The position numbers and the translations under genes were made by a program. Under the pieces are notes generated by a model. The model saw nothing but the letters and a program-made list of their open reading frames with translations. It did no database searches and was not told the DNA's origin. A DNA stretch of 64,000 bases. Source: an uncultured Planctomycetaceae bacterium. Lineage in GTDB: Bacteria; Planctomycetota; Planctomycetia; Pirellulales; Pirellulaceae. Each line of letters opens with the position of its first letter. Position 1 is the first letter of the stretch. Positions 3,291 through 57,723 of the stretch are shown here, piece by piece. Where the stretch lies: contig CAIPEB010000454.1 in the NCBI GenBank assembly GCA_903863885.1, forward strand, positions 1 through 64,000, given 5' to 3'.

Positions 3291-3422
3291 GAATTCACGC
3301 TCCCGTTGGGGAGAGTCGGCCCGGCAGGGCCGAAGAGGGGGGGCGACGCTCCTCGGAAGCTATCGCGTCCGATCCTCCCGCAATGCGGGAGAGTGAATTG
3401 GGTTTTTGGAACACGTTCTGAG
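3291..3422. repeat. Family A stem-loop element, copy 1
   Basis: About 130 bp between the UDP-sugar pyrophosphorylase and manC. It contains a CTCCCGTTGGGGAG-type hairpin, a CGGCCCGGCAGGGCCG hairpin, a degenerate middle, and a CTCCCGCAATGCGGGAG hairpin, ending in ACACGTTCTGAG. The same order recurs at 24810, 26129, 30044, 55662 and 57185. On the minus strand this copy begins a frame reading NVFQKPNSLSR...GGSDA, the peptide found in frame inside UvrC, but it is frameshifted further on. Confidence 0.85.
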
Positions 3423-3456
3423 CGAGAGGGCTGCTTCGCCAGGGAGTCAACGAACT

Positions 3457-4548
3457 ATGATGCACGCCGTGATCATGGCGGGCGGCGCGGGCACGAGATT
3501 CTGGCCGGCCAGTCGTCGCCTGTTTCCCAAGCAGTTGCTGAATCTTGTCGGCGAGCGGACACTGCTGCAGGACACGGTTGCGAGGCTGACCGGGCTCGTG
3601 GCGACGGACTCGTTGCTGGTCCTCACCAATCGGGACCTCGTACCCGCGGTGCGCGAGCAACTGCCCGGTGTGGACGAATCGTTGGTGCTCGGTGAACCCT
3701 GCAAACGCGACACGGCGGCCTGCATCGGGCTGGCCGCTGCGCTCATTCGTCGCCGCGATGAAACGGGAACGATGGTGGTTCTGCCATCGGACCAGCTGAT
3801 TCAACCGCTCGAAACTTTTCAGAATTGCCTGCGATTCGCCTGCTGGCTTGTGCAGGAGGATCCGCAGCGCATCGTGACCCTGGGAATCCGCCCCACATAC
3901 CCTGCGGAGAGTTTTGGTTACATTGAAAGAGGAGATATACTGGCCTCGCAGGCAGCCGGCGAAATCCGGCAGCGAGCTTATCACGTGCGGATGTTTCGCG
4001 AGAAGCCAAAGGCGGACGTGGCGAGAGGCTACCTCGAGTCCGGGCAATTCTTCTGGAATTCGGGCATTTTTGTCTGGCGGGCCGCGACCGTCCTGGACGC
4101 GTTGCGCGAGTTCGAGCCGGCGATCTGGGGGCATGTCCAGCGGATCGCCGACGCGTGGGGAAGCGACGGGTTCCCTGCCGTGTTCGAGCACGAGTTTGAG
4201 CAGATCCAGGGAAAATCCATCGACTACGCGGTAATGGAGCGTTATCGCAACGTCGCGATGGTGGAGGCCGAGTTTCAGTGGGATGATGTCGGCAGTTGGG
4301 GCGCGCTGGCTCGCGTCGGCCAATCCGACAGCGAAGGAAACGTGACCAGCGGGCGATATCTCGGAGTGAACTCCCGCAATTGCATTATTCACGGCGATCC
4401 GCGGCATCTCGTCGTAACGGTCGGGATGGAGGATTGCATCGTGGTCCACACGCCCGATGCCACGCTGGTCGCGCGGAAGTCCGATGAGGAATCGGTCCGG
4501 CAGGTTGTGAATTTGCTCCAGCAGCGCGGATGGAATGAGTATCTATGA
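3457..4548 (+). CDS. manC: Mannose-1-phosphate guanylyltransferase
   Basis: A 363-residue enzyme making GDP-mannose from GTP and mannose 1-phosphate. The N-terminus has the nucleotidyltransferase signature MAGGAGTRFWPASR followed by the catalytic-site lysine in FPKQLL. Later blocks FREKP, FWNSGIFVW, IDYAVMER and WDDVGSW are typical of GDP-mannose pyrophosphorylases. The C-terminal mannose-6-phosphate isomerase cupin of bifunctional ManC/AlgA proteins is absent, so this is the short monofunctional type. I chose the ATG at 3457 because AGGGAG (3441-3446) precedes it at good spacing; an upstream in-frame start would add residues translated from the repeat element. Its stop overlaps the next gene's start as ATGA. 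Confidence 0.93.
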   Translation: MMHAVIMAGGAGTRFWPASRRLFPKQLLNLVGERTLLQDTVARLTGLVATDSLLVLTNRDLVPAVREQLPGVDESLVLGEPCKRDTAACIGLAAALIRRRDETGTMVVLPSDQLIQPLETFQNCLRFACWLVQEDPQRIVTLGIRPTYPAESFGYIERGDILASQAAGEIRQRAYHVRMFREKPKADVARGYLESGQFFWNSGIFVWRAATVLDALREFEPAIWGHVQRIADAWGSDGFPAVFEHEFEQIQGKSIDYAVMERYRNVAMVEAEFQWDDVGSWGALARVGQSDSEGNVTSGRYLGVNSRNCIIHGDPRHLVVTVGMEDCIVVHTPDATLVARKSDEESVRQVVNLLQQRGWNEYL

Positions 4549-5597
4549 GCAAGTCGGCGGTCCGGATTCGAATGCCCTGGTCATGGCTGCCGGTGTTCTG
4601 GCTGGCCGCCGTGATTCCGTGCGTTTCCGCTGAACCGACACCTCGAGTCAACGAAGCGTCCGAGGCCGATGTGAGCGACAAATCCGGGCCTTTCAATTTC
4701 GCAAGTCCGACGTTGGGAGGGAAACAGTTCTGGACCGACGAACTCGTGTTCAACGACTGGAGGATCCAGCGGAACACGATGGTGCCGCATTACCGCCTGC
4801 TCGACGATCAGAATGTCCGGCAGGCATGGGGTTCGTTCGAGCAGTGTCTCGAGCGGCTCGAGACGCTCCGCGAACAGCGCCGGCTGCCGGCTCACGGCAA
4901 GCAGATCGTTCTGGTGCTGCATGGACTGGGACGCACGCGAAGCGCCATGTCGGGGCTGTGCGACTACATTCGCCGCAACTCGTCGTACACGGTACTGAAT
5001 GTCGGCTATGCGAGCACCCGCGAGTCGTTGACCCAGCATGCGGAATCGCTCGCGAAAATCGTCAAGAACCTCGGCGATGTCGAAGAGATTTCGTTCGTGG
5101 CGCACAGCATGGGGAACATCGTCACTCGACGGTATTTCGCCATGCGCGCCGCCAAGGGGATCAAGTTGCCCCGCGTCCGCCGCATGGTGATGCTTGCGCC
5201 GCCGAACCAGGGCGCCCAGATGGCGAAGCGGTTACGCGACACCGGGCTGTTCGAACTCATCATGGGGGCCAGCGCGATGGAACTCGCCCAATCGGCGGAC
5301 AAGCTTGAAAGCCAGTTGGCCGTCCCGGATTGCGAGTTCGGCATCATTGCGGGCGGCACAAAAGAGGATGCGGGGCGCACTTCGCTTCTCGAAGGCGACG
5401 ATGATATGGTCGTGTCTGTGGAAGAGACGCGTCTCGCCGGCGCACGCGATTTTATCGTTGTGCCGGCACTGCACACGGTGATCATGGACAATCCCCAGGT
5501 GCGCGAGTACGTGGTGAGGTTTCTCCGGCAGGGCAGCTTTGTGTCCGAGGAAAAACGCTGCCCTATTCCTTTGCCGGCTTCCGCGGCGAGTCGCTGA
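4545..5597 (+). CDS. Exported lipase-like alpha/beta hydrolase
   Basis: A 350-residue protein with an N-terminal signal peptide (hydrophobic stretch at about residues 11-28, then ending VSA), so probably periplasmic. The alpha/beta-hydrolase core begins at VLVLHGLGR (about 122-130), which carries the oxyanion-hole HG. The nucleophile elbow is AHSMGN with Ser188. A probable acid lies in EGDDDMVVSVEE (Asp285-287) and the catalytic His is in PALHTVI (His310). The arrangement resembles EstA/PGAP1-like esterases and triacylglycerol lipases. The start overlaps the manC stop (ATGA), indicating coupling, although a secreted lipase has no obvious role in GDP-mannose synthesis. Substrate unknown. Confidence 0.85.
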   Translation: MSKSAVRIRMPWSWLPVFWLAAVIPCVSAEPTPRVNEASEADVSDKSGPFNFASPTLGGKQFWTDELVFNDWRIQRNTMVPHYRLLDDQNVRQAWGSFEQCLERLETLREQRRLPAHGKQIVLVLHGLGRTRSAMSGLCDYIRRNSSYTVLNVGYASTRESLTQHAESLAKIVKNLGDVEEISFVAHSMGNIVTRRYFAMRAAKGIKLPRVRRMVMLAPPNQGAQMAKRLRDTGLFELIMGASAMELAQSADKLESQLAVPDCEFGIIAGGTKEDAGRTSLLEGDDDMVVSVEETRLAGARDFIVVPALHTVIMDNPQVREYVVRFLRQGSFVSEEKRCPIPLPASAASR

Positions 5598-5834
5598 TTC
5601 GTGCGGCAGCGATTGTATCGGTGACGCGGAGCGAGTTCTTCTTCTCGCTCGTTCGAGGACGTCCGAGTCGTGGCTGGGTGCGTCCCGATGTGTTCCGCGT
5701 GACCTATCCTTGGAAGATTTCTCGAAATCCGCACAAAACCGAACGTGGACCGAAATCGTCTTTATCAAAAGAACGGGCGACTGCCTTTTCGGAAAGGCTG
5801 CGCCGTAAGTCCGCTGCTGTACGGGGAAAACGTT

Positions 5835-8800: not shown

Positions 8801-9644
8801 TGCGGTGCCGATGGAGCGGGGTGACAAGCAGCAGTTCTTCGTGCCGCTGGTGAATCTGGCAGCCGACCAGTCGTTTGTGCTGGAACTTCGTTACACCGTG
8901 CCCGACAATCAGCGACGGCTCGACTTCCCGGTCTTTGCAGGAAACGTGACCGGTGCCGGCAAGCCGGCAGTCCAGAAGGTTTTCCTGTTCGCTTACCTGC
9001 CCGAAGAGATGGCGCTGCTCGGATCTCGCGGACCGTGGACGAGCGAATCGGGATTGGGAGCCGGCCTGCTCGATTGGCTCGAGCCGTCGGCGGATGCGCG
9101 AACGGCCACGGAGAAGATTCAGTGGGTTACGGAAGCAATCGTGCCGCCGAACCAGATTGAGTCCACGTTTGCCACCGATGGCAAGGTCTATGTGTTTTCC
9201 GCGATTCAACCGCAGGAGTCGCCGGCGGGATCATTGTGGCTTGTGGCGGTTTCCAGGCGGGTGCTCAACGCGATCGTGTTCGGATGCATGATCATCATCG
9301 CGTTGATGTTCGTGCGCTCGACGCCTCTGCGGAAACTCTTCGTGCTGGCACTGACGATCGTTGGACTGATCCTCGCCGCGGTTTTCGTGCCGACGTTTGC
9401 TTCGCAGTTGGCGACCGGCTCGTTCTTTGCGGCGCTGTGCGTGGTGCTGCTGGTGTGGCTGGTGGCGATTGCCGTGCCGCGTCGCGAGAAATCGAAGGCC
9501 CGGGCGGATGCGGCGCCGGCGGAAAAGGCGAAGGAAGAAAAGCTCGAGCCGCAACCGATGAATGAAACGCTGCAGGATGCGGATGCGGCCAAATCGGAAT
9601 TCAAGCCAGAACAACCGCTCGACGGAGGTTCCAGCAATGCGTGA
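5835..9644 (+). CDS. Large exported module protein, first of a pair (1269 aa)
   Basis: No named family recognised. The protein starts with a signal peptide (MKFKLISGTFAAAFLALAMA), followed by a long Ala/Pro linker to about residue 128. Next comes a motif shared with the neighbouring gene: IYVPYGK (about 135) and FLPYEKFQELW (about 155). A second linker of TPPS/APPS repeats lies at about 316-355. The rest is a long, probably beta-rich region with IPAGFQVRQV-type segments, two or more membrane helices near 1137-1215, and a charged cytoplasmic tail. The ATG at 5835 has GGGGAAAA upstream; longer in-frame starts lack a signal peptide. Its stop overlaps the next start by 8 bp, so the two are co-translated. 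Probably a membrane-anchored periplasmic or surface protein. Confidence 0.85.
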   Translation: MKFKLISGTFAAAFLALAMAWSFAAESTPPAAPTAPSPSAETPAPPQPAPPAPPAPAPTPPSTPPAPAAPDAPPAPAPTPPATPPAPAPAAPAAVPAPAPAAVPAPAPAPTPAPAAPAPAAASEKDEIKPLREQTIYVPYGKIRDVFEKEGRGVFLPYEKFQELWQQARGKFVPPAAEQAPVGILLVEADNEARVEKDVVIVHAKILLEVLGKGWHEAPLRLKDAAIRSATINDAPARITFTPENGYRLMLHHDRAEATRLTLQLEYAKAFSKSPGQNSVSLEAPQVPVNRWQIRVPQSGVKVNVQPMIAATEVPATPATPPSTPPSAPPSAPPSASAPGTPAPAAAPAPAAPNETVIQAFVGAAPEVRIDWTPKAEGAAGMEALTSVQAEQEVVVEEGAVRTRVRLAYEISRAEVSQLAIEVPADQKVTGVFDPNVRQWTVAAEQDKQVIRVQLFEAVRGTQNLSIELERFVDVVSQELLVPVVRAAGVSRQQGVVVVRLGEELQGEATRRSGLLQLDKGELPASLQNTQWLFAYRYAMLPFELALKIQKVEPKIRAKELVELYISPELITCDLTAVLEVERGGVFQLDVAIPAGFQVRQVRGLAVAGVEAVQVDTHHVDAADPTQLKVNLSRKANSKLALFVELERNVNDANLTSPTGKTSEIPLAVPRIANKTEHATGHVLVYGPESLRINPLKQTGLRSVPFAEAQQDVPSQREKRFGELREVLAFAYAQPPVELSLGAERRKPFVTVSQLFTVRIDSGVARYDATFNYDVQYSPVKTLRIDVPVALADKIRNLTPSARDLPLDPQPEGLAKEGYQAWGLTGEAEFFGKTAIRFSWEDRQSELAIGKSAEYTLPVLRPMGADRSWGQIVLTKGETLDIRPKTVSAQLRPIDPQHDLMDGARVPDAARAFEFHDPNWTCSVTATRYQLEEVKRTSIERAVLRMVVTRSDKITVQGIYRMRSAAQRIELQVPDNAVFDTDPLRINGRAVPMERGDKQQFFVPLVNLAADQSFVLELRYTVPDNQRRLDFPVFAGNVTGAGKPAVQKVFLFAYLPEEMALLGSRGPWTSESGLGAGLLDWLEPSADARTATEKIQWVTEAIVPPNQIESTFATDGKVYVFSAIQPQESPAGSLWLVAVSRRVLNAIVFGCMIIIALMFVRSTPLRKLFVLALTIVGLILAAVFVPTFASQLATGSFFAALCVVLLVWLVAIAVPRREKSKARADAAPAEKAKEEKLEPQPMNETLQDADAAKSEFKPEQPLDGGSSNA
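6792..6839 (+). repeat. Four tandem 12-bp units in the Pro-rich linker
   Basis: Four consecutive 12-bp units, [AG]CACCCCCGTCG, encode TPPS, TPPS, APPS, APPS inside the 1269-residue protein. The units are nearly identical at DNA level, which suggests recent slippage expansion of an interdomain linker. Confidence 0.9.
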
Positions 9645-12600
9645 GCGAACCTGCAATCGTCGGATGATGCACAAAATGAGTTTGGCGCTGTTGCCCACGA
9701 GCCTCCTGCTGCTTGCGGCATACCAGGCCGCCGCGGGTGAAGCGCCGGTCGCTCCCATCCGCGAGATCTTTGTCCCGTTCGAGTCGCTGGACGTGCTTCT
9801 GCAGAGCGGGGCGGAACGGGTCTTCATGACGCGCGAACAATACGAAGATCTGGTGAAGAAAGCGGCTCGTGCGCCGGAAGAGCACGCGCCGCGTGAATCG
9901 CTGCTTGTGTCCGCTAACTACGCCGGCGAGATTCGGGACGGCCGCGCGCAGCTGACAGGGACGCTGAGCGTCGAGCTGTTCGAGCAGGGGCTGCACGCCC
10001 TGCCGCTGGATCTTTCCGGCGTCGGAATCCGCGCAGCAACGCTGGACGGAAAAGCCGCGGCAGTGGGGCTCAGTCCCGAGGGAAAGCCCGTGCTGTTTCT
10101 CGAAGGCAAGGGCGTTCACGAACTGCGGCTCGAGTTGATTGCGCCGCTTACAACTTCGGCCGCCCAGCAGACCTTGCAGGTGGAATTGCCCAATCCGGCC
10201 ACGTCGAAATTCAATGTCACCGTTCCCGGCAATGTCGACGTGCGCGGCGGAGCGTCGGTGATTCAGCGCGTTGTGGACGAGGCTGCGGCGGTCACGAAAC
10301 TGGAACTTCTGGCGCCTCGCGGTCCGATGGCGCTGGTGCTTTCGCTGAATAATCGGCAACTGCTGAAGGAACAATCGGTCCTGGCCCGCAGCGTGCTCGT
10401 GGACGAGATCACGCAGGCCTATGAACGCATTCACGCGACGATATCGTTGGCCGTGCTGCACGGCGCCGTGGATCAATTCAGATTCACGCTGCCTGCGGGT
10501 TTCGAAGTCACGGAGATCAAGTCTCCGGCATTGGCCAAGTGGGAAGTGACTCGCGAAGCCGGCCCGCAGCCGGTCAGCGTTCTCGCTGTTTATCTGCGGG
10601 AGCCGACGATGGGGACGGTGGTCCTGAGTCTCTCCGCGGTGAACAATTCGCGCGCTCCGGATGGCTGGGCGTTCCCGCGCATCGAACCGCGCAATGTGGT
10701 CGGGCAGGTTGCCGTGATCGGGCTGCTCGTTGAGGAACAGTTGAACGCCGAATCGCTCGATGCCAGGCACTTGATTCCCATCGATGCTTCGGTGGTGCGC
10801 AAAGCCCTGCCCGAGTCGGTATTCCGCGCCGAGCCCGGTGCGCCGCGCGTCCGTCCGGTCGCGGCCTGGTACGCGCCGCAGGGCGACTATGCGCTGAATG
10901 CGAGGTTCGCGAAGCCGCCGGCGAAACTCGATGTCACCAGCAACGTCGTCCTGAAACTGGATGCAAAGCAGCAGCAGGTGAGGGCCGGGTTTGCCTTGTT
11001 GCCCGAGTCCGAAAAACTGTTTGCAGCCGAAGTGCGGATTCCCCGCGACTGGAAGGTGACGAGCGTCACGGGCGCGAACAACGCTCCGCTCAGCCACGAT
11101 CGATTCGAGGATGCACCGGAAGGGTTCTCGCGATTGATCGTCCGTTTTCCCGCGGGAGTGGCCGCCGGGACGACGGAGAACCTCTTCGTCGAAGCGACTC
11201 GCACGCCGGCGAAGTGGCTTGAGAACTGGCCGAAACAGACCGTTGATTTCCCCGTTATTTCTGTCGTCGGGGCGACTCGCGACCGAGGAGCGATCGCAGT
11301 GACCGGAATCGATGATCTGCTGCCGCGTCCCGAGAAACTCGATCGTCTCACGCCGCTCGATGAAAAAGAGAAGGCTCAGTTCGGGTTGCAGGACGCGTCC
11401 ACGACGCTTGCCTACCGCTATGACCTGCCCCCTTATTCGGCATCGTTCACGGTTGAAAGGACGGTCGCCCGCATGACGGCGCGAACCTACAACTTCTTCG
11501 GCCTGGCTCCCGACGGGCTGTCGGCCCATTACGAGATTGCCTACGACGTGCAGCAGGCTCGCGTACAGAGCCTTGAATTCCGATTGCCGAAGACGACTCC
11601 GGTCTCGGTGTCGATCCGCGGTCTCGACGAGGTCGCGGTAAAGGAATGGACAAGCGTTGAGGACGACAAGTCCGGTGATCGACTATGGAAAGCGCTGTTG
11701 TCCGAGGCGAGGCAGGGCACGGTGCGGCTCGAAGTGTCCTTCCAGCAATCGCTCGATGAAAGACTGCGTGCCGACATGTCTTTGCCGCTTGTGCACGCGC
11801 AAGGAGTTGAATACCAATCCGCGTTCATCGCTGTCGAAGGAAATCAGGAATTCGATGTCAAGGTCGACGACAAAGAGACGGGGCGCCGCATCGACGTGGG
11901 AGAATTGGCCGACGCGGATTACCAGGTCGGTCCGCATCTTCTAGGTGCGTACCTGCTGCCCGACGGCGTCGGTGAAATCTGGGTGCAGATCAAGCAGCGC
12001 GAGGAATATGGTCTGCCGCCGATCCTGATCGAGCGGGGAAAACTCGAGACACTGATGTCCACCTCGGGCACGAGCGTCACGGGGGCGAGGTTCCTGCTCC
12101 GCAGTAAGGCAGCATATCTCGAGGTCACTCTGCCGCGCGGCGCGACGCTCTGGTCGGCTTCCGTCGATGGAGTTCCTTCGTCGCCTCAGCGTCAAGGAGA
12201 GCGATTGCTGATCGGATTGCCCGCGGCTGTACCGCAGCCTGTGGCGAATGCCGACCCGTTCGGTTCTCGACCGCCGCAGGTGAAGGTCGGCTTGCGCGAC
12301 GTTCAGATTGTTTACGAACTGCCGATGGGCCGCGTACTGGGAATGGGACAGATCGACGCGGTCGCTCCGCAACTCACGCTTCGCTCGCCAAGTGGTGAAG
12401 CCACGCCCGTGCCGCAGGCCAATCTCGAGTGGGAACTTTTCCTGCCGACAGGGCACCGCGTTGTCCGTTCGTCGGGCACCGTGTTCACTCGATTTGACCA
12501 GGACCGGGCTGTCCCTGTGAAGGCATTGCTCGGCACGCTGTACGCGCTGACCGGAGGTATTCGGCCGAGTGCCGTGTTTCTGGCCGCTCCGGCAAGCGCA

Positions 12601-15600
12601 TACAGGCGGACCTTCAGTAAGGCGAATTCAGCGGGGAACATGGATGTAACGACCGAAGGGTTGATGGAAGCGCCGAGGGCCGCCGAACTCGCAGACCAGG
12701 CGCCGGCTGGCATGATGGGCGGGATGGGCGGCGGTGGGATGGGCGGATACCCGGGAGCGGGAGCCGCCCCAATGGCCGGTCAACCCCCAATGCCGGGAGG
12801 GCCCGGCGGTGCAGCGAATGGCACGATGCCCGGGGCCATGCCCGGGATGGGAATGGGCGGTGAAGCGTATGGCACGATGCCCGGGGCCATGCCTGGGATG
12901 GGAATGCCCGGGATGCCGGGCACACCTCCGCCGCAGGCTCAATTCAGGGATAAAGCCGATCCGGCCAAATCAGAGGCCGCACCCGAGGCCAAACCCAGGG
13001 CGGGACGTGCGCCAGCGAGTAAGCCAAGGTCCAACGCGGTGAAGGCCAAGGAGGATGTGACGAAATTCGATGTCGGCGGCGGACGAAGTCAGGCGGGCGC
13101 AAGCAGCGACAGGGAATCCGTCGAACTGGACTTTCAGCAAAGTGCACTGGGGCGAGGCGAAGCGCTGGGTTACCAGGCGCCGAGCCAGACATGGGCGCTT
13201 GAAGGCGTGCGGAGTCTCATGATCGATCTCGATGCGACAGGGGACCGGGTCAGGTTCGACAGCCTCGGTTCGGACCCGCGCCTCCGCGCCACGATTGTGC
13301 GGCAGTCCAGCCTCGATTGTCTTGCCGGCGCTCTGGCCTTGCTTGTTGCCGTGATCGGTATCGTGATTACCGGGCGAACGTGGCGGCGCAAGGCATCGTT
13401 TGTTGTCGGAGTCGCTGTGGCCGCGCTGGTGCTGCCGATCCTGATCGGCTGGACGACCCGCCTCGAACTGGATTCTCTGTTCGTGCCCGCGTTTGCGGCA
13501 GCATGTCTGCTCGTTCCGTATTACCTCCTTTCCGCAGCCGTTTCCGCAATCTTCCGAGTGGGACGGCGCGTTCGCTGGCCCTGGCGCACCGCCGCCGCAA
13601 CTGTCGCTCTGTTGATCACGTGCGTTTCGTATGCTCCGGCTCAGGACAATCCGGCGGACAACTGGAACAAGCTGATGCAGTTGCTCGGAGATGGCGGGGC
13701 CGTGCCGCTGCCCAAGGACGCCGTTGTCATTCCGTATGACGCCAACGATCCGCGCGGTCCTGAAAAAGCAGCCAAGGTGCTCGTGCCTTACGAGAAGTAC
13801 GCCGAGTTGTGGAAGCTCGCTTTCCCGGACCAGCCGTTGGAAGGGAAGCAGCCGCCCGCTCAATTTGCTCTGGCCGGCGTCTCGTACAAGACCACGTTGA
13901 ACGGCGATCAAGACATCCTCGTCACGGGCAATATCCAGATCGATTGCTTCGTGGACGCGGCGGTAACGATACCCATGGCATTGTCGGGAGGAGTTTTGAC
14001 TCAGGCGACCGTGGACGGCCAGCCGGCGCGTCTGTCGGTCGTCCAGAGCCAACCGGCTCCCGCAGCCCAGCCGCAGGCCCAGCAACAGGCCCCAGCGCAG
14101 CAGGTTCAGGCTCCCGCAAACAAGGACGAAACTTCGCTGCTCGTCCTGCAGGTTTCGGGCAAGGGCCGCAAGCAGCTTGCCTTGAGCCTGCGAATGCGGC
14201 TGGATCGCAGCGGAGGATGGCGCATCGCGCGAGGCAGTCTGCCCGCGGCGCCGAGCACGGAAGTGAACATCACCGTGCCGCTTGCGCAGACCGAGGTTCG
14301 CCTTTCGGAGGTGCACGACCGCGAACTGTACGAGACCACGCAGGCCAATGAAGTCCTGCAGACGGCGCTGCGACCCGACGGGCGATTCGTGCTTCAGTGG
14401 CGTCCCAAAGTCGCCGTTGGCCAGGTGGACGAACGACTGACGTCGCAGTCCCTGGCGCTGTTCGACATCCAGGAAGACGGCCTGCGGCTCACATGGCAGA
14501 CGAGCCTGGAATTCCCGGGGAATCAGCGCGACACGTTCAGCCTGACGTTGCCCAAGGACTATCTCCTCGAGAAGGTCACCGGGGATAACATCCGCGGATG
14601 GCGCGTGCAGACTGACGGCGACGCTCAGCGGCTGGACGTCAATCTGTTGAAAGCGGCCACCGACAAGGAGACGTTCACGCTGCACCTGGCCCGCTTCACG
14701 GCAATCGGCCAGGACGCGGCCACGCCGATCGAAACGCCGGCCGTGCTTGTGACCGGCGCCACGCTGCAGCGTGGCCAACTGGTGATCCGGCGCAGCCCGC
14801 TGCTCGACGTACGTACGTCCGCATTGAAAGGCGTGACTCGCGACGCGATCGACGACAAGACGGTAGAGTCGCTGGCCAGCCGCGCTGCGGTGGAGAGTCC
14901 GCTTGGCGTCCGCTCATTCGAGACGTATCGCTTTGTTGCGGTTCCCTATCAGTTGCAGCTTTCCGTCGCTTCGTTCCCGGCAAACATCACGGCGGAAGTC
15001 CGCTCGCTGCTGAAACTGGGCGAGCGCGAGGCCCTGTATGAAGCCGAAGTGCGGCTCAAGGTGCTCGACCGTCCTCTCCATCGGTTGCGAATCGCGCTGC
15101 CGAAGGGATTTCGATTGGACGAAGTGGTGTTCGCAGGGGTGTTCGAATGGTCGCAGGCCGAGGTCGAGGGCGTGTCGCAGGTGACCGTCTATTTTCCGGA
15201 AGGCCAGATCGGTCCGTTGTCGCTGGTCATTCGCGGTTCGATGCCCGACCGGTCGGATGCCGCATCGCTGGCCGTTCCGAAACTCGCGGTGCTCGATGTT
15301 GCGCAACAGGAAGGCTACCTCGTTGTCCAGGCTGATCCCGCATACGACGTGGTTCCGGAGGGTCTGCGGAACTGCGAGTCCGTGCTTCTGCAGCGGGTGT
15401 TCTCGTGGATCAAGGAAGAGCAGCGCCCGCTCTGCCGAGCGGTGCTGAATTATCGCAACCCCGACTACGAAGGTTCGATCCGACTGGCCCTGCGCAAACC
15501 TCGCGTCAGCGTGTTCAGCATCACCAACGTGCGAGTGACGATGCGCGAGATCCAGTACTCGATCTACTTTGAATACACGATACGCGAATCCGGAATTCGC

Positions 15601-17839: not shown

Positions 17840-17884
17840 CCGTGGGTTGAAACCCACGGCTACCCTCATGCTGTCGCTACGCGA
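17840..17884. repeat. Family B palindrome, copy 1
   Basis: A CCGTGGGTTGAAACCCACGG hairpin followed by a tail reading CTACCCTCATGCTGTCGCTACG. Hairpin and tail recur together at 33797 and the hairpin alone at 35295. It sits between the convergent giant gene and the aldose epimerase, where it could act as a bidirectional transcription barrier. No T-run is present. Confidence 0.8.
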
Positions 17885-24701: not shown

Positions 24702-24809
24702 GTGTAGGTCCTTTCCCAGTCAATGAACAGGGTCAATAAGCAGGCAAACAAAGCGGACGGAGCCGGACTGCCCGCGCCGGCTCAGTCTGAGCATACAGGT
24801 ATGACAGTT

Positions 24810-24957
24810 CTAAGAACGTGTTTGAAAAATCCATTTCACCCTCCCGCAATGCGGGAGGGTCGGACGCGAAAGCGTCCGGGGAGGGTCAGTTCCCCCTCTC
24901 CGGCCCTGCCGGGCCGACTCTCCCCAAGGGGAGAGTGAATTCTAAAACACCTTCTAA
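24810..24957. repeat. Family A stem-loop element, copy 2 (most complete)
   Basis: About 148 bp between the oxidoreductase and the corrinoid protein gene. The ends are imperfect inverted repeats (CTAAGAACGTGTTT at the left, AAAACACCTTCTAAG at the right). Inside are four hairpins in order: CCTCCCGCAATGCGGGAGG, CGGACGCGAAAGCGTCCG, CGGCCCTGCCGGGCCG and CTCTCCCCAAGGGGAGAG. The plus strand is open across the element and reads SPSR...GGSDAKASGEGQ...SGPAGPTLP, as in UvrC. It interrupts an operon, so it could process or attenuate the transcript. Confidence 0.88.
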
Positions 24958-24992
24958 GGGGTGCGTTCGCGATCTGGCAGTCGCAATGACTG

Positions 24993-25631: not shown

Positions 25632-26128
25632 GGCTTCTCCCGTACTCGATCAATCTCGCTACCGGCAGATGATGGAACGTTCCCAGAATCCGCAGGGCTC
25701 CATTATCGCGAAGTCAGCGGGAACAGGTCAAAGCGTGAAGCGGGAAAATCGGGAAAAGGCCAGGGCCAGTGCTCCTTGCGTCCGTTTTCCTCGCCGCAAC
25801 GCGCTTATTCGCTAAAGCTTCTCGCAACCGCAATGCGGTTCCTATCGATCAATTTCCGTGCCGCACATTCTATCTTGCCGAAACCGGCGCTGTCCACAGT
25901 CGACAGCTGGAGACCGGGGTCTGGAGCCAGAAAAATCCCCATCCGATTACCGGCCACGGTCCACCGGCACCTGCTTCTCGGCAGAAACTGCCCGCCTTTG
26001 TCAGCGAGTTGGCAGTTGGTAAGATTTGTCCCAGGCGGAAAGTCAGCGTGTTTTTTCCCTGACACGGCCTGCCGCTTCGCGCCCGGGTCCGCTCCAAGTC
26101 AACGCTTTCCAGCCGCCGGGAGTATGTC
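25632..26128. other. Divergent spacer, no gene seen
   Basis: Nearly 500 bp between the divergent corrinoid operon and pyrG. Short open frames exist but lack ribosome-binding sites and recognisable products. The operon promoter should lie here. I looked for a cobalamin riboswitch, expected from the adjacent B12 protein, and did not find its conserved B12-box or stem order by eye. Confidence 0.45.
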
Positions 26129-26339
26129 GTGCGGTTTAGAAGTGGTTTCACCGTCGTGATTCATGCTTCACTCTCCCTCTGGGAGAGTCGGGCCGAAGGC
26201 CCGGAGAGGGCTGCCGCGCCGCTAGTCGTAGAATTCGCTACTGGTTCGGAAGACCCTCCCCGACCGCTACGCGGCCGACCCTCCCGCACGCGGGCGGGTG
26301 AAGCCAAGTCGTTACGTCTAAATGGTTCCTAAACCGCAC
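26129..26339. repeat. Family A element, copy 3, long fold-back form next to pyrG
   Basis: The largest copy, about 210 bp. Perfect 11-bp outer arms GTGCGGTTTAG (26129-26139) and CTAAACCGCAC (26329-26339) enclose the usual core: CTCTCCCTCTGGGAGAG, CGGGCCGAAGGCCCG, CGACCGCTACGCGGCCG and CCTCCCGCACGCGGGCGGG. It ends 21 bp before the pyrG start codon, just upstream of its Shine-Dalgarno, so the folded RNA would form most of the proximal 5' leader. Confidence 0.8.
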
Positions 26340-26360
26340 GCCCTCGGAGGGCGGAATTCC

Positions 26361-28659: not shown

Positions 28660-30222
28660 TCAATCGTCGAGCGTTGATTTCTTGCGCAGCATGTGATGAT
28701 AGTGCTGCGCAAAGCGGTGCGCCTCGTCCCGCACGTACTGCAATAGCCTCAGCGCAAAGGAATGACGGCTGAGCCGCAGCGGCTCGTCCGCCGCAGGCAG
28801 GAAAACTTCTTCCTCGCGTTTGGCCAGTGAAATCAGCACCGGCGGCTCGATCTGCTGGTCGCGGAACGCGGCCATCGCGGCGTGCAGCTGTCCTTTGCCG
28901 CCGTCGATCAACAGAATGTCGGGAAACACCTCGCCCTCGTCGTACATGCGGCGGTAACGGCGCGAGACGACCTCGTGAATGCTGCGGAAATCGTCGATTC
29001 CGGCGACTTCGCGGATCTTGTATCTCCGATAGCCCGGCTTGAACGGCAGGCCGTCGAGGAACTGCACCACGCTCGCCACCGTCTGGTCGCCCCCCAGATG
29101 CGCAATGTCCACTCCCTCGATCGTTCGCGGCGTCTGCTCGAGTTTCAAGACCTTGCGGAGCCCCGACAGCCCTTTGCGGGGATCGATGTGAAATACCTCA
29201 GGTTGCACGTGCGTGTCGAGATCGCCCCGCTGGTCCAGTGTTTCGAGCATGCGGATCTCATCCCTGAGCCGCGCTGCTCTTTCAAACTCCAGCGCCGCAG
29301 ACGCGGCCTGCATCTCGTCCCGCATCTGCTTCAGCAGCGAGGATTTCTGGCCCTCCATGAACATGATCAGCCGGCGGATGTCGCGCCGGTATTCGTCCTT
29401 GCCGATCCTCAGGTTGCACGGCGCCGTGCATTGGTGAATGCTCGCCAGCAGGCACGGGCGGAACCACCTCCATCGTTCGTCGTTTTCGATGATGTCGAGC
29501 GAGCAGGTGCGGAACTGGAAGATCCTCTGCAGGACCTGAACCGCTCCCCGCAGATCGCCCGCGTTGGCGAACGGCCCGAACAGTTTGACTCCCCGATCCC
29601 TGGGTTCGCGCGTCACTTCGACGCGAGGGAAATCCTCGTGCGTCGAGACCATCAGGTACGGAAACGTCTTGTCGTCTTTAAGTTCCTTGTTGTGCCGGGG
29701 CTGCACGTCCTTGATCAGCCGGGCCTCGACCAGCAGCGCGTCGACCTCGCTCTCGCACTCGATGTAGTCCGCGTCGCAGATTTCTTTCACCCACGGCGCG
29801 GTCCGCCACTCCTCTTCGGCGCCCTTGTGGAAATAGCTGCTCGCACGCGAACGCAGGTTCTTCGCCTTGCCGACGTAAATCACGCGGCCGGCGGAGTCCT
29901 TCATCAGATAGACTCCCGGCTTTTGGGGAAACTCGCGGACTCGCGCCGCCGCCCGGCGGTTGCCCAGCGAATCCAGGGCGCCGGCCGGCATCTGCTCATC
30001 AGCCTCTGTCTGCCCGCCGTCCCCAAGCGGCGCTTCCGACCGGGAACTTGTTTCTGAATTCATGCTCCCCGTGGGGAGAGTCGGCCCGGCAGGGCCGGAG
30101 AGGGGGCACTGACCTTCCCCGCACGCCGCAGCGTCCGGCCCTTCCGTGCTGCGGGAGGGTGAATTGGGCTTTTCCAGCACGTTCTGAGATAGTTCTTCGG
30201 CCGGTTGCTCGTCTTCGTCCAT
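28660..30222 (-). CDS. uvrC: Excinuclease subunit UvrC, no C-terminal HhH, in-frame repeat near N-terminus
   Basis: A 520-residue nucleotide-excision-repair nuclease subunit. Residues 12-60 come from the family A element (PNSPSR...GEGQCPL). The GIY-YIG nuclease follows (about 101-180: PGVYLMKDSAGRVIYVGKAKNL). The UVR motif (LEFERAARLRDEIRML) binds UvrB. The RNase-H-like 5' nuclease domain keeps VDIAHLGGDQTVAS, LLIDGGKGQL and RDEAHRFA. The protein stops right after that domain at KKSTLDD, so the helix-hairpin-helix pair of the roughly 600-residue E. coli type is missing. The ATG at 30222 is chosen for GGGAG at 30232-30236; a start at 29991, after the repeat, is possible and would leave the nuclease intact. 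It follows the mutase gene by 77 bp. Confidence 0.9.
   Translation of the reverse strand: MDEDEQPAEELSQNVLEKPNSPSRSTEGPDAAACGEGQCPLSGPAGPTLPTGSMNSETSSRSEAPLGDGGQTEADEQMPAGALDSLGNRRAAARVREFPQKPGVYLMKDSAGRVIYVGKAKNLRSRASSYFHKGAEEEWRTAPWVKEICDADYIECESEVDALLVEARLIKDVQPRHNKELKDDKTFPYLMVSTHEDFPRVEVTREPRDRGVKLFGPFANAGDLRGAVQVLQRIFQFRTCSLDIIENDERWRWFRPCLLASIHQCTAPCNLRIGKDEYRRDIRRLIMFMEGQKSSLLKQMRDEMQAASAALEFERAARLRDEIRMLETLDQRGDLDTHVQPEVFHIDPRKGLSGLRKVLKLEQTPRTIEGVDIAHLGGDQTVASVVQFLDGLPFKPGYRRYKIREVAGIDDFRSIHEVVSRRYRRMYDEGEVFPDILLIDGGKGQLHAAMAAFRDQQIEPPVLISLAKREEEVFLPAADEPLRLSRHSFALRLLQYVRDEAHRFAQHYHHMLRKKSTLDD
30044..30188. repeat. Family A element, copy 4, inside uvrC
   Basis: About 145 bp with the standard hairpin order (CTCCCCGTGGGGAG; CGGCCCGGCAGGGCCG; a degenerate CGCCGCAGCGTCCGG segment; CTGCGGGAGGGT) and the ending CCAGCACGTTCTGAG. 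It lies in the 5' part of uvrC and is read through in frame on the minus strand, adding about 48 residues ahead of the GIY-YIG domain. The frame used is the same one used by the copy inside the oxidoreductase gene at 57185. Confidence 0.88.
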
Positions 30223-33796: not shown

Positions 33797-33864
33797 CGTG
33801 GGTTGAAACCCACGGCCACCTTCATGCCGTCGCTACGAGGCTCCGGACTCCGGACTCCAGACTC
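33797..33864. repeat. Family B palindrome, copy 2, joined to a GGACTC tandem
   Basis: CGTGGGTTGAAACCCACG hairpin with the same tail as copy 1 (ACCTTCATGCCGTCGCTACG), followed directly by a short CTCCGGACTC tandem (33841-33864) that ends at the stop of the next gene. It lies between convergent genes. The tandem resembles the one inside the oxidoreductase gene at 57067. Confidence 0.8.
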
Positions 33865-34998: not shown

Positions 34999-35463
34999 GG
35001 CGGTTTCTACCTCAATTGCTGCTGCGACTTTCGATGCCGCCGCGTGTACGGACACAACCCGGGCAGTGATCGCGGGACGCAAAGATCGATGGCGAAATAC
35101 TTTGGGTTGCTGAAATCGACTCTCAATTGCGAAATCGAAATGCCCACGAGGAAAGAATAACACGGGAAGAGCGCCGGGCAACGCGTGCCGAGGGGGAAAG
35201 TGGCCCCCGTGCGCGCGGCCGGTTGTTTCCGCGGGTTGAAATCCACGTCAACGCAGGATGAAGAAGCGATGCCGGAAAAAAGCTAGGCACCCCGCCGTGG
35301 GTTGAAACCCACGGCCGAATGTTCGCATTCTCCTCCACCACTACCGTCCACCGTCCTCCGGCCGGTCACGTGCACTTGCCAACGCGGCAGCGGGGCGAAC
35401 AATATCTAAAGAACGAGTTGCGTGATACGAAGACAGATAAAGGCCCGACTCGAGGACCATGAA
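34999..35463. other. Divergent spacer with family B palindromes
   Basis: This 465-bp spacer lies between the lipoprotein and the protease genes. It contains a clean family B hairpin (35295-35326, CCGTGGGTTGAAACCCACGG, without the usual tail) and a decayed one at 35230-35249 (CGCGGGTTGAAATCCACG). A short CTACCGTCCACCGTC low-complexity run follows near 35341. No gene is supported. Confidence 0.65.
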
Positions 35464-44402: not shown

Positions 44403-44410
44403 AGCCGCGA

Positions 44411-50247: not shown

Positions 50248-50254
50248 TCGCACG

Positions 50255-53296: not shown

Positions 53297-53340
53297 TCGC
53301 GTGCTGTAACTCTTTGTTTTTTCCGCCGCGTTATCGTCTT

Positions 53341-53371
53341 ATCCGTGTTTCATCCGTGCCCATCCGTGGCC
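53341..53371. repeat. ATCCGTG tandem between convergent glycosidase genes
   Basis: Three imperfect 10-11 bp units beginning ATCCGTG (53341, 53352, 53362) fill most of the 87-bp spacer between the GH36 and GH95 genes. The spacer also holds a CTTTGTTTTTT tract at 53311-53321, which might act as a U-tract for the plus-strand gene, but I see no stable hairpin before it. Confidence 0.65.
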
Positions 53372-53383
53372 TCTCCGCCTTTT

Positions 53384-55621
53384 TCACCGCAGCGTGCCCT
53401 CAATCGATTCGCCCGCCGCGAGCGTGATCTCGTAATCCGCGCCGACCTTTTTCACGTCGGGCCGGCTCCATTTCACATCGCGGCCCTGGAAGTTATCCCG
53501 CAATCGCACGACGCCGTGCGGTCCAGCGACAATCTGAAACCAGACTGTCTGGCCGTTTTCGCGTCGGGCGGACACGCGGTGGCCTCCCTCGGCGCGGAGA
53601 TTGTCGAACGATGCTTCATGCCATTGTTCCGGCGTTGCCGGGAACAGGCGGATGACTCCCTTCCAGCTTTGCAGCAGCATCTCGTGGACGGCCTGCGAGG
53701 CAAGGAAGTTCCCCTCCAGCGTGAAGGGGCGGTAGCGGAAGTTCGAATAACCGCTGGCCGTTTGATCTCCGTTCGCATGGAATCCGTTCCGCAGGATGAA
53801 CGCCTTGACGTAGATTTCGAGGTTTCGCAGCGCGGCATCCGCATCGCCTGCGCGCGCGCGAAGGCAGGACATCCACGAGAAACTGTCGCCGCACCACGCG
53901 GACGTGCCGAGCTGGTCCCATTGTTTCAGGGACGCGGCAATCATCCGCCGGTCGTTGTCGCCGCCGTCGACAGTGATCAGGTCGAACGGATGGATGCCGA
54001 TGATGTTCGACAAGTGCCGGTGGCTGAATGTCAGGTCCTCGTTTTCGGAAAGCTTCAGCGTTCCGTCGCCCGTCGAGTAGAAAGGCCCCAGCGATTTCGC
54101 GGCTTGAGCCCACTGCTGCGAGGCGGCGGTGTCGCCCGAGGCGGCTGCCATTTCGGCGAGCGAGTCGAATAGCATGCGGATGCAGGCGATGTCGTAATTG
54201 CTGTTCGGCTTCAGCCACGCCCGCAAGGTGTTGTCGAACACTTCGGGCGACGAAGAGAGCGGCAGTCGCTGCAGGCCGTCAGCGTCCGGTTTCAGCAATT
54301 CACGCAGGCACGTTCCAATTTCCGAGCACCAGGGATATGCCCGCGCCCGCAGGAACTGGTCGTCTCCCGTGTAGCGCCAGTGCAGGTAATACAGATGGCC
54401 GATCCATGCGCCCATTGTCGGCGAGAGGCTGTACTGCGGCCATCCACCCAGCGGCTGACCGGCCAGTGTCATCACGCCGGGCACCGCCGCGCCGCCCGTG
54501 CCGTAGAAGTCCTTGGCGAACTTGCGAAATGCGGGCAGCAATTCCCAATTGAAATCGAGGAACGACGCGCCTTCGTCAAATCGTCCGGCTGCCTGATAGG
54601 CGATGTACGTCATCTGGGTGTTAAGGTCGTTGTGGTAGTCTCCCTTCCACGGCGGAAGCGAATCTCCATCGGCCGTCCACACGCCCTGCAGCGGCATGGG
54701 CGGTGCGCCGCGACGCGATGCGGCACCATAGAAGTACTGCACGAGGTAGTACTGCCGCAGAATACCGGCATCCGGAACGGATACTCGCGACTTTGCCCAG
54801 AAATCGGCCCACCACTCGGAGTGCGGCTTGAGCAACTGTTCATATCCGGCCGCCAATGCGGTGCTGACTCGCTCTCGCGCAATGGCCACGGGGTCGGCTC
54901 CATCCCGCGTCGAGGTAACCGTGAAGGCCAGCAGTGTTGCGTCTCCATCGCGATCTGAAGCGGCTCGTTTTGATGTGACGCACACGCAGTACTTGAGGCC
55001 TTGCGCTGCATCCTGAACGAACCATTGCGTGTCTGCGTCGCTTCCTGTTGCGGGTTCGGGGTAATTCAGTTGTTTCACGGACACGGGCGGCTTCAACTGC
55101 AGTAGTTTCGGCGCAGCGCCCGGGATGCGCAATACGGCGACCGGTTGTTGCGCGCTGTAAAAAGCGTCGATTTTCGCGCCGCTGGTCAGCCAAGCCCTTC
55201 CTTCCGCGGTGGCGAGGTTCAGCTCGAAAGACTGCAGTGTCTGCGACGGATCCAGCGTGATTTCCAGGCGGCCCGCCGGGATCTTTGTCGGATGTGCTCC
55301 GCCGTAGTTCATGTCGAAGATCGCGTTGATCTCGTTCTGTTTTCCTTCTTTGACCAGTCGCTGCATGTTGGCGTAGTTGAACTCGGGCCATCGCATTCCG
55401 TCGGCCGGGCGTTCGTCCCAGAGATCACCACGGTCGAGCGACAGGCGAATCGTGTGCCCCTCGCCCCAGAGCAGTCCGCCGAGCAGTCCGTTACCTAAAG
55501 GCACTGCTTCGTCCCAGGTGGTAATCGGCGCGTCGAGCTTCAGGTTCAGCGACGCTGGCGGAAGCGAGTCCGCCGATGTGCAGAGCAATCCCAGCATCAG
55601 GCCCGCGAGCATGCAGTTCAT
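53384..55621 (-). CDS. Exported GH95-like alpha-L-fucosidase
   Basis: A 745-residue secreted protein matching GH95 glycosidases. A short signal (MNCMLAGLMLGLLCTSADS) leads into the N-terminal beta domain (WDEAVPLGNGLLGGLLWGEG, LDRGDLWDERP). The (alpha/alpha)6 barrel has PLQGVWTADG, PPWKGDYHNDLNTQMTY (the paired Asn of the active site) and FSHRHLSNIIGIHPFDLI. The block usually reading QIDGNFG, which bears the catalytic base in characterised enzymes, reads TLEGNFLAS here with Glu636. It may be a divergent or differently tuned enzyme. AAGGAG (55631-55636) fixes the ATG at 55621. A family A element lies upstream, between this gene and the oxidoreductase. Confidence 0.88.
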   Translation of the reverse strand: MNCMLAGLMLGLLCTSADSLPPASLNLKLDAPITTWDEAVPLGNGLLGGLLWGEGHTIRLSLDRGDLWDERPADGMRWPEFNYANMQRLVKEGKQNEINAIFDMNYGGAHPTKIPAGRLEITLDPSQTLQSFELNLATAEGRAWLTSGAKIDAFYSAQQPVAVLRIPGAAPKLLQLKPPVSVKQLNYPEPATGSDADTQWFVQDAAQGLKYCVCVTSKRAASDRDGDATLLAFTVTSTRDGADPVAIARERVSTALAAGYEQLLKPHSEWWADFWAKSRVSVPDAGILRQYYLVQYFYGAASRRGAPPMPLQGVWTADGDSLPPWKGDYHNDLNTQMTYIAYQAAGRFDEGASFLDFNWELLPAFRKFAKDFYGTGGAAVPGVMTLAGQPLGGWPQYSLSPTMGAWIGHLYYLHWRYTGDDQFLRARAYPWCSEIGTCLRELLKPDADGLQRLPLSSSPEVFDNTLRAWLKPNSNYDIACIRMLFDSLAEMAAASGDTAASQQWAQAAKSLGPFYSTGDGTLKLSENEDLTFSHRHLSNIIGIHPFDLITVDGGDNDRRMIAASLKQWDQLGTSAWCGDSFSWMSCLRARAGDADAALRNLEIYVKAFILRNGFHANGDQTASGYSNFRYRPFTLEGNFLASQAVHEMLLQSWKGVIRLFPATPEQWHEASFDNLRAEGGHRVSARRENGQTVWFQIVAGPHGVVRLRDNFQGRDVKWSRPDVKKVGADYEITLAAGESIEGTLR

Positions 55622-55661
55622 CGTGTCGTTCTCCTTGTCGGGCGTCGGTCCGGTGGGTGTG

Positions 55662-55799
55662 TCAAAACGTGTTGAAAAATCTAATTCACGCTCGCGCAAT
55701 GCGGGAGGGTCGGACGCCAAAGCGTCCGGGGAGGCGCAGATCCCCATCTCCGGCACGACTCTTCCCGAGGCGAGAGTGAATTCAAAAGCAGCTTCTCAG
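55662..55799. repeat. Family A element, copy 5
   Basis: About 138 bp between the GH95-like gene and the oxidoreductase, both on the minus strand. Hairpins CTCGCGCAATGCGGGAG and CGGACGCCAAAGCGTCCG are clear; the right half is decayed (CCCCATCTCCGGCACGACTC). Ends TCAAAACGTGTTGAAAAAT and AAAAGCAGCTTCTCAG match copy 2. The plus strand is open and reads SRSR...GGSDAKASGE...TLP. Confidence 0.85.
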
Positions 55800-55854
55800 T
55801 GCGGATCGTGCAACGCGAGGCACAGTATCTTCGGCGCGTATCGTCGGGGCGGTA

Positions 55855-57723
55855 TCATCGGGGCAGTGGCAGGGTGACCCACGCACGCTCGGCCGCGGAA
55901 CGATACGCGGCGGCCAGGATTTCGGTAGCGGCCGCTGCGAGCTCGATCGGAAACAGGCAGTCTCGTCCCTGCTCGATACAATCGAGAAACGGTGTGATAT
56001 CCGAAGTCCATGAAGGTGTCCAATCGGGCAGCCAGTTCGTCTTGGGGCGGGGACGATAGGGACTGTCGGGCGCGGGTATCCACATTCCCATCGGGTCGTC
56101 CGGGTCGCGCGGCGGAGCGGCCCAGGGTTGAGTATCGCACCAGCATTCCCAACGCGGGCGATGAGCGTCCAGCATGGCGGTCTTTCGCGTTCCGACCAGC
56201 GCAATTCGATCCAATCCGCCGGCGGGATGCGATCGCCATCCGGTTCGGCCGGCAGTGATCGTTGCCGTTGTGTTTCCGCCGAATTCCAGCAGGATCTGCC
56301 CGAAATCCTCCATGTTCCGCTGTTGATGTTCGGCGAAGTAGAAGTTCCCGGTGGCCGCCGCGACACGGCGCACGCGTTTGCCAACCAAGCGAAGGAGCAT
56401 CGCCACGCAATACACGCCGATGTTGGTAAGCTCGCGCTTGGAGTCGTCCAGTTCGAAGCGGTCCGGGTTCGCCGATTCTGTTCGCGGTTTGGACAGGTCG
56501 GCAGTTCCCGGCGTTCCTTTGGCAAAACAGAGTTCACTGTGGACGGCCTGAATGTCACCTAGTTGCCCGGACTCGACAATTTCCGCGGCTCTTCGGGCCG
56601 GCTCCCAATGCAGCATCGTCATCATCTGCGCGACGATGCCGGTCTGGCGGATCTCGCGCGCGATCGCATCAGCTTCGTTGACCGAAGCACACAGCGGCTT
56701 GTCGAGATACAGGTGCTTTCGAGCGCTGGCCGCGTTGATGATGATGCGAGCCCTTCGTTCGGGCTCGGCACAGATGCTCACGATGTGCACATCCGGGCGG
56801 CGAATCGCGTCGTGCAGGTCAGGCAGCAGCGGAATTCCAAGTCGGCTGGCGAGAGCCGCATTACGTTCCCTGCGCCCGGCGGAAACGTCCTGCTCGTCGG
56901 TCACGCCGATCAATCGGCACCGCGGGTCAGCGGCGAATGCGCTTGCATATCCGGGCTGGTGAGTGAATTCGCCGGCGACGAGCAACACGCCGTAGGGCGG
57001 AAGTTGTGCTGGGCGCGACAGGCGTTCGATTCGAAGCTTTTCGCTTCCGCCTCTGCTTGTGACCCCAGACTCCGGACTCGAGACTCCGGACTCGAGACTC
57101 CGTTCTCCTGACTCTGTTCCTTCCATACCAGCGAACTGCCGGCTGGCCAGTGCATTGCGAAGTGCAGCGAGCAGCTTCTCCTGGGAACGAGTTTCAAGAT
57201 TCACTCTCGCCTTGGAGAAAGTCGGCTCGGCAGTGCCGCAGAGGGGGCATTGACCCTCCCCGGGTGCTTTCGCGTCCGACTCTCTCGCGTCGCGGGAGGG
57301 CGAATTGGGTTCATCATGCACTTGGTGGTGCTTGACGGGGCTCGAACGGGTGTCGTCGCCGGTTTGCTTCCTCGGCAGGGTGCCTGATTCCCAGGCCAGA
57401 ACTCCTCGGTTGCCGAATAGTTCGCAATGTGACGGCGCGACAGGATCGTCGCTTGCGGCTACGGAGGCAATGAGGCATGAGCCGTTGCGGCAGACGAGCA
57501 GGGCGGCAAGCGGTCCTGATTGCGAATCGCCGTGGGCCGCGATGGATTCGGGTTCACTGCGCAGCCACTCGAGTCCGGCGGACAGCAGTCGCGTCAATTC
57601 GATATCGGCTTGCGATGATTGCCGCGGAAAGCTCGAAATCATTCGGGCCGCGACGGGACGGCCCGCATCGTCGCGTTGGACAACGGATTGCAGTGCCTGG
57701 ATCAAAGGGTCATTGCTGTCCAT
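55855..57723 (-). CDS. Gfo/Idh/MocA oxidoreductase with N-terminal domain and in-frame repeats
   Basis: A 622-residue protein, nearly twice normal length. Residues 1-115 are an unrecognised N-terminal domain (LLSAGLEWLRSEPE, LAALLVCRNGSCLIASVA). Residues about 135-180 are encoded by a family A element (PNSPSR...GEGQCPL) and residues about 207-219 by a 14-bp DNA tandem (SGERSLESGVSSPESG). The Rossmann domain starts near 244 (YGVLLVAGEFTHQPGYA), with the catalytic motif reading LDKP instead of EKP, and the C-terminal domain includes KRELTNIGVYCVAMLLRLVGKRVRRV. The ATG at 57723 follows the kinase stop by 72 bp, so kinase and oxidoreductase are probably co-transcribed. Inserts fall in the linker, so activity may be retained. 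Substrate unknown. Confidence 0.88.
   Translation of the reverse strand: MDSNDPLIQALQSVVQRDDAGRPVAARMISSFPRQSSQADIELTRLLSAGLEWLRSEPESIAAHGDSQSGPLAALLVCRNGSCLIASVAASDDPVAPSHCELFGNRGVLAWESGTLPRKQTGDDTRSSPVKHHQVHDEPNSPSRDARESDAKAPGEGQCPLCGTAEPTFSKARVNLETRSQEKLLAALRNALASRQFAGMEGTESGERSLESGVSSPESGVTSRGGSEKLRIERLSRPAQLPPYGVLLVAGEFTHQPGYASAFAADPRCRLIGVTDEQDVSAGRRERNAALASRLGIPLLPDLHDAIRRPDVHIVSICAEPERRARIIINAASARKHLYLDKPLCASVNEADAIAREIRQTGIVAQMMTMLHWEPARRAAEIVESGQLGDIQAVHSELCFAKGTPGTADLSKPRTESANPDRFELDDSKRELTNIGVYCVAMLLRLVGKRVRRVAAATGNFYFAEHQQRNMEDFGQILLEFGGNTTATITAGRTGWRSHPAGGLDRIALVGTRKTAMLDAHRPRWECWCDTQPWAAPPRDPDDPMGMWIPAPDSPYRPRPKTNWLPDWTPSWTSDITPFLDCIEQGRDCLFPIELAAAATEILAAAYRSAAERAWVTLPLPR
57067..57102. 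repeat. AGACTCCGGACTCG tandem inside the oxidoreductase gene
   Basis: Two perfect 14-bp copies (57067-57080, 57081-57094) and a partial third lie in the coding region and are translated as a Ser/Glu/Gly-rich stretch. A related CTCCGGACTC tandem occurs in the spacer at 33841-33864. Fourteen is not a multiple of three, so each copy is read in a different phase. Confidence 0.85.
57185..57320. repeat. Family A element, copy 6, inside the oxidoreductase gene
   Basis: About 136 bp with the family order, partly decayed: CTCGCCTTGGAGAAAGTCGG, CTCGGCAGTGCCGCAGAG, CCCCGGGTGCTTTCGCGTCCG and TCTCGCGTCGCGGGAGGG. It is read in frame on the minus strand and gives PNSPSRDARESDAK...GEGQCPL, which lines up residue for residue with the copy in uvrC. 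Confidence 0.85.

Follow-up and report, generated by a model that had tools for sequence, protein, structure and literature searches.

The 64,000-nucleotide stretch analysed here (the window) covers positions 1 to 64,000 of contig CAIPEB010000454.1 from assembly GCA_903863885.1 of an uncultured Planctomycetaceae bacterium. It contains a dispersed hairpin-rich element, designated family A, which was indeed found at the places indicated by the original prediction, where inverted-repeat pairs of 142–146 nt with 80–83% identity are formed (Table 1). That prediction had listed six copies sharing hairpin order and termini, each with a four-hairpin structure. Five of them belong to family A and score 116–178 bits with a covariance model (CM), while the copy at 26129 has other ends, scores 62 bits, and represents a second family, B. 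The family A consensus is 149 bp long and shows five stem-loops plus pairing ends instead of four hairpins. The predicted divergence of the copies was confirmed: the mean identity to the consensus is 84%, indels not counted (68 copies). The copy at 3275 lies between a called gene that ends 23 nt to the left and another that starts 34 nt to the right, and the called start of the gene at 53384–55699 (- strand) falls within the copy at 55659.

Table 1. Copies of families A and B in the window and the two genes associated with them
Feature	Positions	Strand	Remarks
Family A copy	3275..3424	+	CM 149.1 bits; intergenic
Family A copy, best preserved	24808..24958	-	CM 177.8 bits; intergenic
Family B copy, 222 bp	26123..26344	+	GAGGTCGTGCGGTTTAG-type ends; 62 bits; related hairpin core
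UvrC gene, start as called	28660..29991	-	downstream of the 30040 copy
Family A copy	30040..30190	+	CM 152.4 bits; just upstream of UvrC or in the UvrC N-terminal tail
Family A copy with internal deletions (9-nt, 1-nt)	55659..55799	-	CM 116.4 bits
Oxidoreductase open frame holding the 57181 copy	55858..57795	-	orthologues, Pfam
Family A copy, in frame within the Gfo/Idh/MocA oxidoreductase gene (- strand)	57181..57331	+	CM 140.9 bits

As the original prediction had proposed, a covariance model (R1) was built from the five family A copies and searched, and the element proved to be dispersed throughout this genome (11.0 Mb, 789 contigs), with at least 136 matches, some of which represent a single place matched on either strand; scoring covered 150 of the 2366 first-look candidates, and some twelve weak places were left unfetched. 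Scores were obtained for 99 of the 100 loci requested by place (L129 was left out), and removal of opposite-strand duplicates and of three weak neighbouring matches (<=30 bits) reduced 180 matches to 112 rows, a few of which are two parts of one nested site. Family A is the closer relative for 77 of these 112 places and family B for 35. Leaving out nine A-like rows that are short or weak or are truncated at a contig boundary gives the 68 near-full-length A copies used below, and family B was analysed in 18 copies with both ends recognisable. Several contigs terminate within copies. Elsewhere, R1 matched in 7 of 39 genomes with 55 bits at best, compared with up to 178 bits here (77 candidates scored per genome).

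Family A bears terminal inverted repeats, and its ends read CTNAG in the 68 copies. The centre base of this motif is identical at both ends in 37 copies (18.0 expected), and among copies with three or all four fixed letters intact at each end, it is equal in 26 of 36 (10.4 expected; 0 of 20000 permutations). The element's own letters, G after the left TNA and C before the right TNA, deviate in only 8 of 68 copies each, whereas the outer C and G deviate in 18 and 21, which fits duplication of TNA at a preferred CTNAG target. The copy at 24808, which differs from the consensus by 8 substitutions, carries CTTAG at both ends, i.e., a TTA duplication.

A candidate source of these ends is present in the same genome. 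One of its 11 DDE_Tnp_1 loci, on contig C719, bears A-type ends on both sides and constitutes an intact-looking insertion sequence (IS) of 894 bp (3760–4653; ends GAAGGTGTTTTGAAATTG ... TTTTCAAAACACCTTC), with TTA outside both ends and GAAGGTGTTTTGAAA at both ends. Its open frame of 284 codons matches the NCBIfam model NF033580 (IS5 family transposase) with 213 bits at a cut-off of 110, as well as Pfam DUF4096 and DDE_Tnp_1; presumably, IS1031-type is the label for a TNA-target IS of this kind. The left ends of A and the C719 IS agree at 18 of 20 positions in one A subfamily and at 15 of 20 in the A left consensus, and the right ends agree at 15 of 20. An exact search for the 15-mer GAAGGTGTTTTGAAA located it six times in this genome, four times in A copies and once at each end of the C719 IS; ten more places carry it with one mismatch, against 1 for a reversed-pattern control. 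The interior of family A is not IS sequence, and the 149-bp consensus, found in multiple dispersed copies, is too short for a transposase. In the flanks fetched for the other ten DDE_Tnp_1 loci of this genome, neither A nor B ends were present, nor did these flanks reveal a source IS for family B. The exact A right-end pattern gave no match in the genome contig collection, a set from which this genome is possibly absent.

In view of the matching ends and the TTA duplication of the C719 IS, family A is best read as a miniature inverted-repeat transposable element (MITE) of that IS. Very probably, it is a non-autonomous unit in which two ends of an IS5-family IS surround a foreign palindromic core. 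Several observations weigh against this. Since no more than one IS copy with both ends was detected, it is resemblance that assigns it the role of source, and the match to the IS is poorer for the right end of A than for the best left end. The T and A of the triplet deviate jointly at both ends 8 times against 4.7 expected and 8 times against 7.2, barely above expectation, so that the case for TNA duplication relies mainly on the centre base. Furthermore, all three copies known in proteins share one frame, as a frame-keeping model would also predict, and one of the three (L040) was scored as intergenic by the home-made gene caller.

Palindromic structure, high copy number, and intergenic location would suit a repetitive extragenic palindromic (REP) or REPIN-type repeat moved by a RAYT transposase, and REP families have been reported from planctomycetes, according to the part of the source available (PMC3733652). 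Against this stand the terminal inverted repeats of family A, its triplet target duplication, and an IS5-type IS whose ends resemble its own. A REP is 20–40 bp long with GTAG/CGTC at one end; the far longer A consensus (149 bp) has the ends CTNAGAACG, with CGTC only within a stem. Judged by these features, with no search made for RAYT genes, an origin of this kind is highly improbable.

The genomic placement of the MITE-like family A was assessed with a home-made gene caller based on a fourth-order periodic model; simple codon scores were too weak for gene context. According to the caller, 63 of the 68 copies lie between genes and five in or across a gene, though L040, one of the 63, is within a protein as judged by orthologues. 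By a stricter count, 2 of 68 copies are inside genes, as opposed to 423 of 528 other CTNAG sites in the A loci; thus, insertions into genes are removed or avoided. The suggestion that the element has a frame tolerating insertion into genes does not agree with this depletion, whether the strict or the loose count (5 of 68) is taken. As for the window, where four intergenic and two genic copies had been proposed, the copy at 57181 is indeed inside a gene by homology, but the called start of UvrC (29991) lies downstream of the copy at 30040.

In 13 of the 66 A copies outside genes, the duplicated TNA serves as the stop codon of the flanking gene (at the right end in 10 of the 13), whereas among 105 other non-genic CTNAG sites 7 coincide with a stop codon (Fisher one-sided P 0.01). 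Together with the strong folding of some copies, this excess might speak for a functional structured RNA or terminator that spreads by transposition and is retained at the 3′ ends of genes because of its hairpins. The z-scores of folding relative to shuffles are indeed -8.8 for the copy at 24808, -4.0 for 3275, and -2.0 for 55659, but those at 30040 and 57181 (both -0.2) fold no better than shuffles, and no match to Rfam was obtained in the window at gathering scores. The gene ends facing A copies are divided between 72 three-prime and 62 five-prime ends. When the hairpin pairs were counted in 50 of the 68 copies, real and shuffled data did not differ in paired cells (85.5% vs 85.5%), double changes (11 vs 10.6), or covariation (0.096 vs 0.096). 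Sliding the partners by 1–3 columns lowers pairing to 35–51%, but pairing above such a control is expected for a structure taken from one copy. Selection for an RNA function is, therefore, very unlikely; the hairpins were inherited from the founder and are decaying.

Despite the depletion in genes, the claim that the element can be carried in frame within proteins is supported. Orthologues back three such cases, the window copy at 57181 and the loci L075 and L040, and all three use the frame SPSR...SDA...GEGQ. The 57181 copy forms a linker between the N-terminal and Rossmann domains of the Gfo/Idh/MocA protein, as delimited by Pfam; five close orthologues are devoid of the block, and three match both flanks by BLAST. 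L075 is a MerR-type protein of 299 codons, while its four orthologues have 223–245 codons. In the arabinofuranosidase-like protein of L040, the block is situated between an apparent signal peptide (by eye) and the mature part, and it is missing from the three orthologues compared, out of 14 other genomes with a match. There is hence next to no chance that the in-gene copies are old, phylum-conserved protein sequence and the spacer copies coincidental: the Gfo and arabinofuranosidase orthologues examined lack these residues, and the four MerR orthologues are shorter by approximately the block length, though the linker aligns poorly. Nothing in favour of such a reading was encountered.

Two more proteins, UvrC (the copy at 30040) and a glycosyltransferase (L047), may carry A in their N-terminal tails. 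For UvrC, 24 of 28 main orthologue matches start no earlier than query residue 61, which lies beyond the element; the other four start at residues 9–57, three of them only by crossing stops. In-protein candidates thus amount to 5–6 of 68, five found by the caller plus L040 recognised by eye, three of them backed by orthologues. As to the uniform frame, a sample of three proteins is too small to tell insertion selection from chance. A separate small repeat family was noticed in the oxidoreductase beside the 57181 copy, where a short repeat peptide, SLESGVSSPESGV, lies at about 57050–57100 (- strand); L112 has a longer tandem run of this kind (SLESGVWSLESGV / TPDSRLQTPDSRLQ).

The original prediction further held that at least five copies share the same peptide frame and that the element keeps it. 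Read from the 5′ end, the peptide frame is uninterrupted in three of the five window A copies (24808, 30040, and 57181); in those at 3275 and 55659, an open frame spans the same strand, but indels shift it off the peptide. Frame maintenance was evaluated against a neutral simulation in which the consensus received as many substitutions and indels as the respective copy carries. In the element proper, 36 of 68 copies have the SPSR...GEGQ frame open, compared with 31.0 +/- 3.7 simulated (P 0.11); the figures are 31 of 63 compared with 28.2 when five genic or doubtful copies are excluded (P 0.27), and 18 of 22 compared with 15.1 among copies without indels (P 0.14). With the target bases taken in, the count is 31 of 68 and the simulated value 26.1 +/- 3.4 (P 0.10). 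All six frames of the element proper agree with drift (P 0.11 to 0.78). An apparent excess in the frames '+2' (31 vs 11.8) and '-1' (7 vs 2.7) was gone on the element proper; the variable target base is the suspected cause.

Active keeping of the frame is thus not borne out, although a small excess may exist; the in-gene frame is indeed always the same in the orthologue-backed cases, but it is not open beyond neutral expectation. An open frame as such is not special, since random 149-mers of the window carry 2.96 open frames on average and 98% of them have at least one, as compared with two in the consensus and 1.17 on average in composition shuffles. A unit like the Rickettsia palindromic elements, with a coding frame selected to sit inside proteins, would account for the common frame in three proteins, for an added length that equals 144 nt in 27 of 68 copies and is divisible by three in 38, for the recognition of the peptide across copies by translated search, and for the slightly raised frequency of open frames. 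Since this excess is insignificant also in copies free of indels, 63 of the 68 copies are called intergenic with target sites within genes avoided, and random sequence of the window also carries open frames, such selection seems very unlikely.

The core enclosed by the ends of family A is a modular unit. Family B shares with A the hairpin order and part of the core, while the terminal repeats are unrelated. Comparison of the B core with the A core yields a score of 91, the highest value among 200 shuffles being 39; four cores from the relatives G010 and G015 score 64–73 against A (best shuffles 33–38), and two further core loci, from an uncultured Planctomycetaceae bacterium and Roseimaritima sediminicola (Pirellulaceae), score 105 and 81 (shuffles 35 and 38). 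A search of 24 loci of other genomes, allowing up to three mismatches, detected no ends of the A, IS, or B type in 20 of them, and L325, L138, and L218 gave single weak matches. A pair of ends was found only in L329 (G035:C199:18942-19349), which comes from a different family within the order; there, A-type ends, with CTAAG at either side, surround an interior unlike that of A, and the element is probably a sister MITE. The core thus occurs without A or B ends in two relatives and between two unrelated end sets in this genome. By eye, of the two core loci from the Planctomycetaceae bacterium and Roseimaritima, L217 has a GAACGTGTTC stretch beside the core and L218 has inverted ends of its own, GCACGTCG, so these loci may carry IS-like ends of other kinds; the genes beside both core copies also end at the border. 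L131 (G012:C23, 1439–2107) is a tandem array of 4.5 copies with a period of 149, whose hairpin unit resembles B by eye.

The hairpins also receive insertions. Seven of the 18 B copies with both ends sit within an A copy, all at A positions 29–35, which correspond to the loop of the first hairpin, and an exact 5-bp duplication accompanies 8 of the 18; the B copy of the window is not located in an A copy. A further IS end, CTCGTTGTACTACACAAG / CTCGTTGTACTACACAAGTTAATTGCG, was encountered at five places (L249–L253, on C167, C248, C462, C602, and C699), and visual inspection places four of these within A or B hairpins. Several A copies (L051, L065, L073, L082, and L084) contain an insert of some 16 nt that looks like this same IS end. 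These data allow the tentative suggestion, for which the odds are somewhat less than even, that the core is an old planctomycete palindromic module, self-spreading in some genomes and captured at least twice here between unrelated transposon ends (the IS5-type ends of A and the 5-bp-duplicating ends of B), with its loops acting as preferred landing pads. Capture between the A and B ends would mean that one palindrome rides two transposition systems.

Taken as a MITE, family A would have been moved in trans by an IS5-type transposase binding the GAA(C/G)GTGTTT ends. An intact insertion at a CTNAG site would add 144 nt (48 codons), so that a rare insertion into a protein linker could survive if read through in a stop-free frame. 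Most surviving copies would reside in spacers, in some cases with the duplicated TNA supplying the stop codon to an adjacent gene. Once inserted, copies appear to drift, with no visible upkeep of either the peptide or the RNA structure. The hairpin core would be an older module, also filling family B and occurring in relatives without these ends, and its loops would serve as landing sites for other elements.

Two other features of the window were noted. A separate short palindromic repeat, CGTGGGTTGAAACCCACGGC, is present at 17841–17881, 33797–33837, and 35296–35336, and a very large open frame of 2749 codons occupies 9562–17811 (+ strand).

A large repeat load of a planctomycete-like genome is explained in this way by one IS and its derivatives, and the in-protein copies provide cases of linkers gained from a transposon. 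With a core common to two MITE families that have unrelated ends, it can be asked whether the hairpins aid movement or are merely attractive targets.

In the literature, as far as the accessible parts of the sources go and with most subscription journals outside coverage, no such planctomycete element was found beyond REP families (PMC3733652); this silence is weak evidence of novelty. REP repeats are likewise palindromic and dispersed and, from what could be seen of that source, can be insertion targets of other elements (PMC3733652), but A differs from them in length, terminal repeats, target duplication, and a DDE-type source. The Rickettsia palindromic elements resemble A in being about 150 bp long, palindromic, and sometimes in frame within proteins, and nearly half of the first-reported ones are in ORFs (open reading frames), according to the available portion of the report (PMC10969869). 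The parallel drawn in the original prediction thus extends to in-frame carriage in three proteins, but only 5–6 candidates of 68 are in genes here, the frame is not visibly kept, and the candidate source IS, the ends, and the duplication point to an IS-derived MITE. The enterobacterial RU/ERIC elements and the QMITEs of Coxiella are MITE-like, with occasional reading-frame fusion, in the excerpts seen (PMC2759123, PMC5896051); they are likened to A by description, and the sequences are presumably unrelated. QMITE2 is described in the excerpt as a hot spot for IS1111 (PMC5896051), which resembles the use of A as a target by B. The closest likeness is to IS5-family ISs and their MITEs, with which A and its candidate source share terminal repeats, TNA duplication, an IS of ~0.9 kb with one DDE transposase frame, and many short derivatives. 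Unlike those MITEs, A is filled not by IS sequence but by a palindromic core that also occurs elsewhere lacking these ends, and the less ordinary part of the system is this core, common to A and B, and its use as a landing site.

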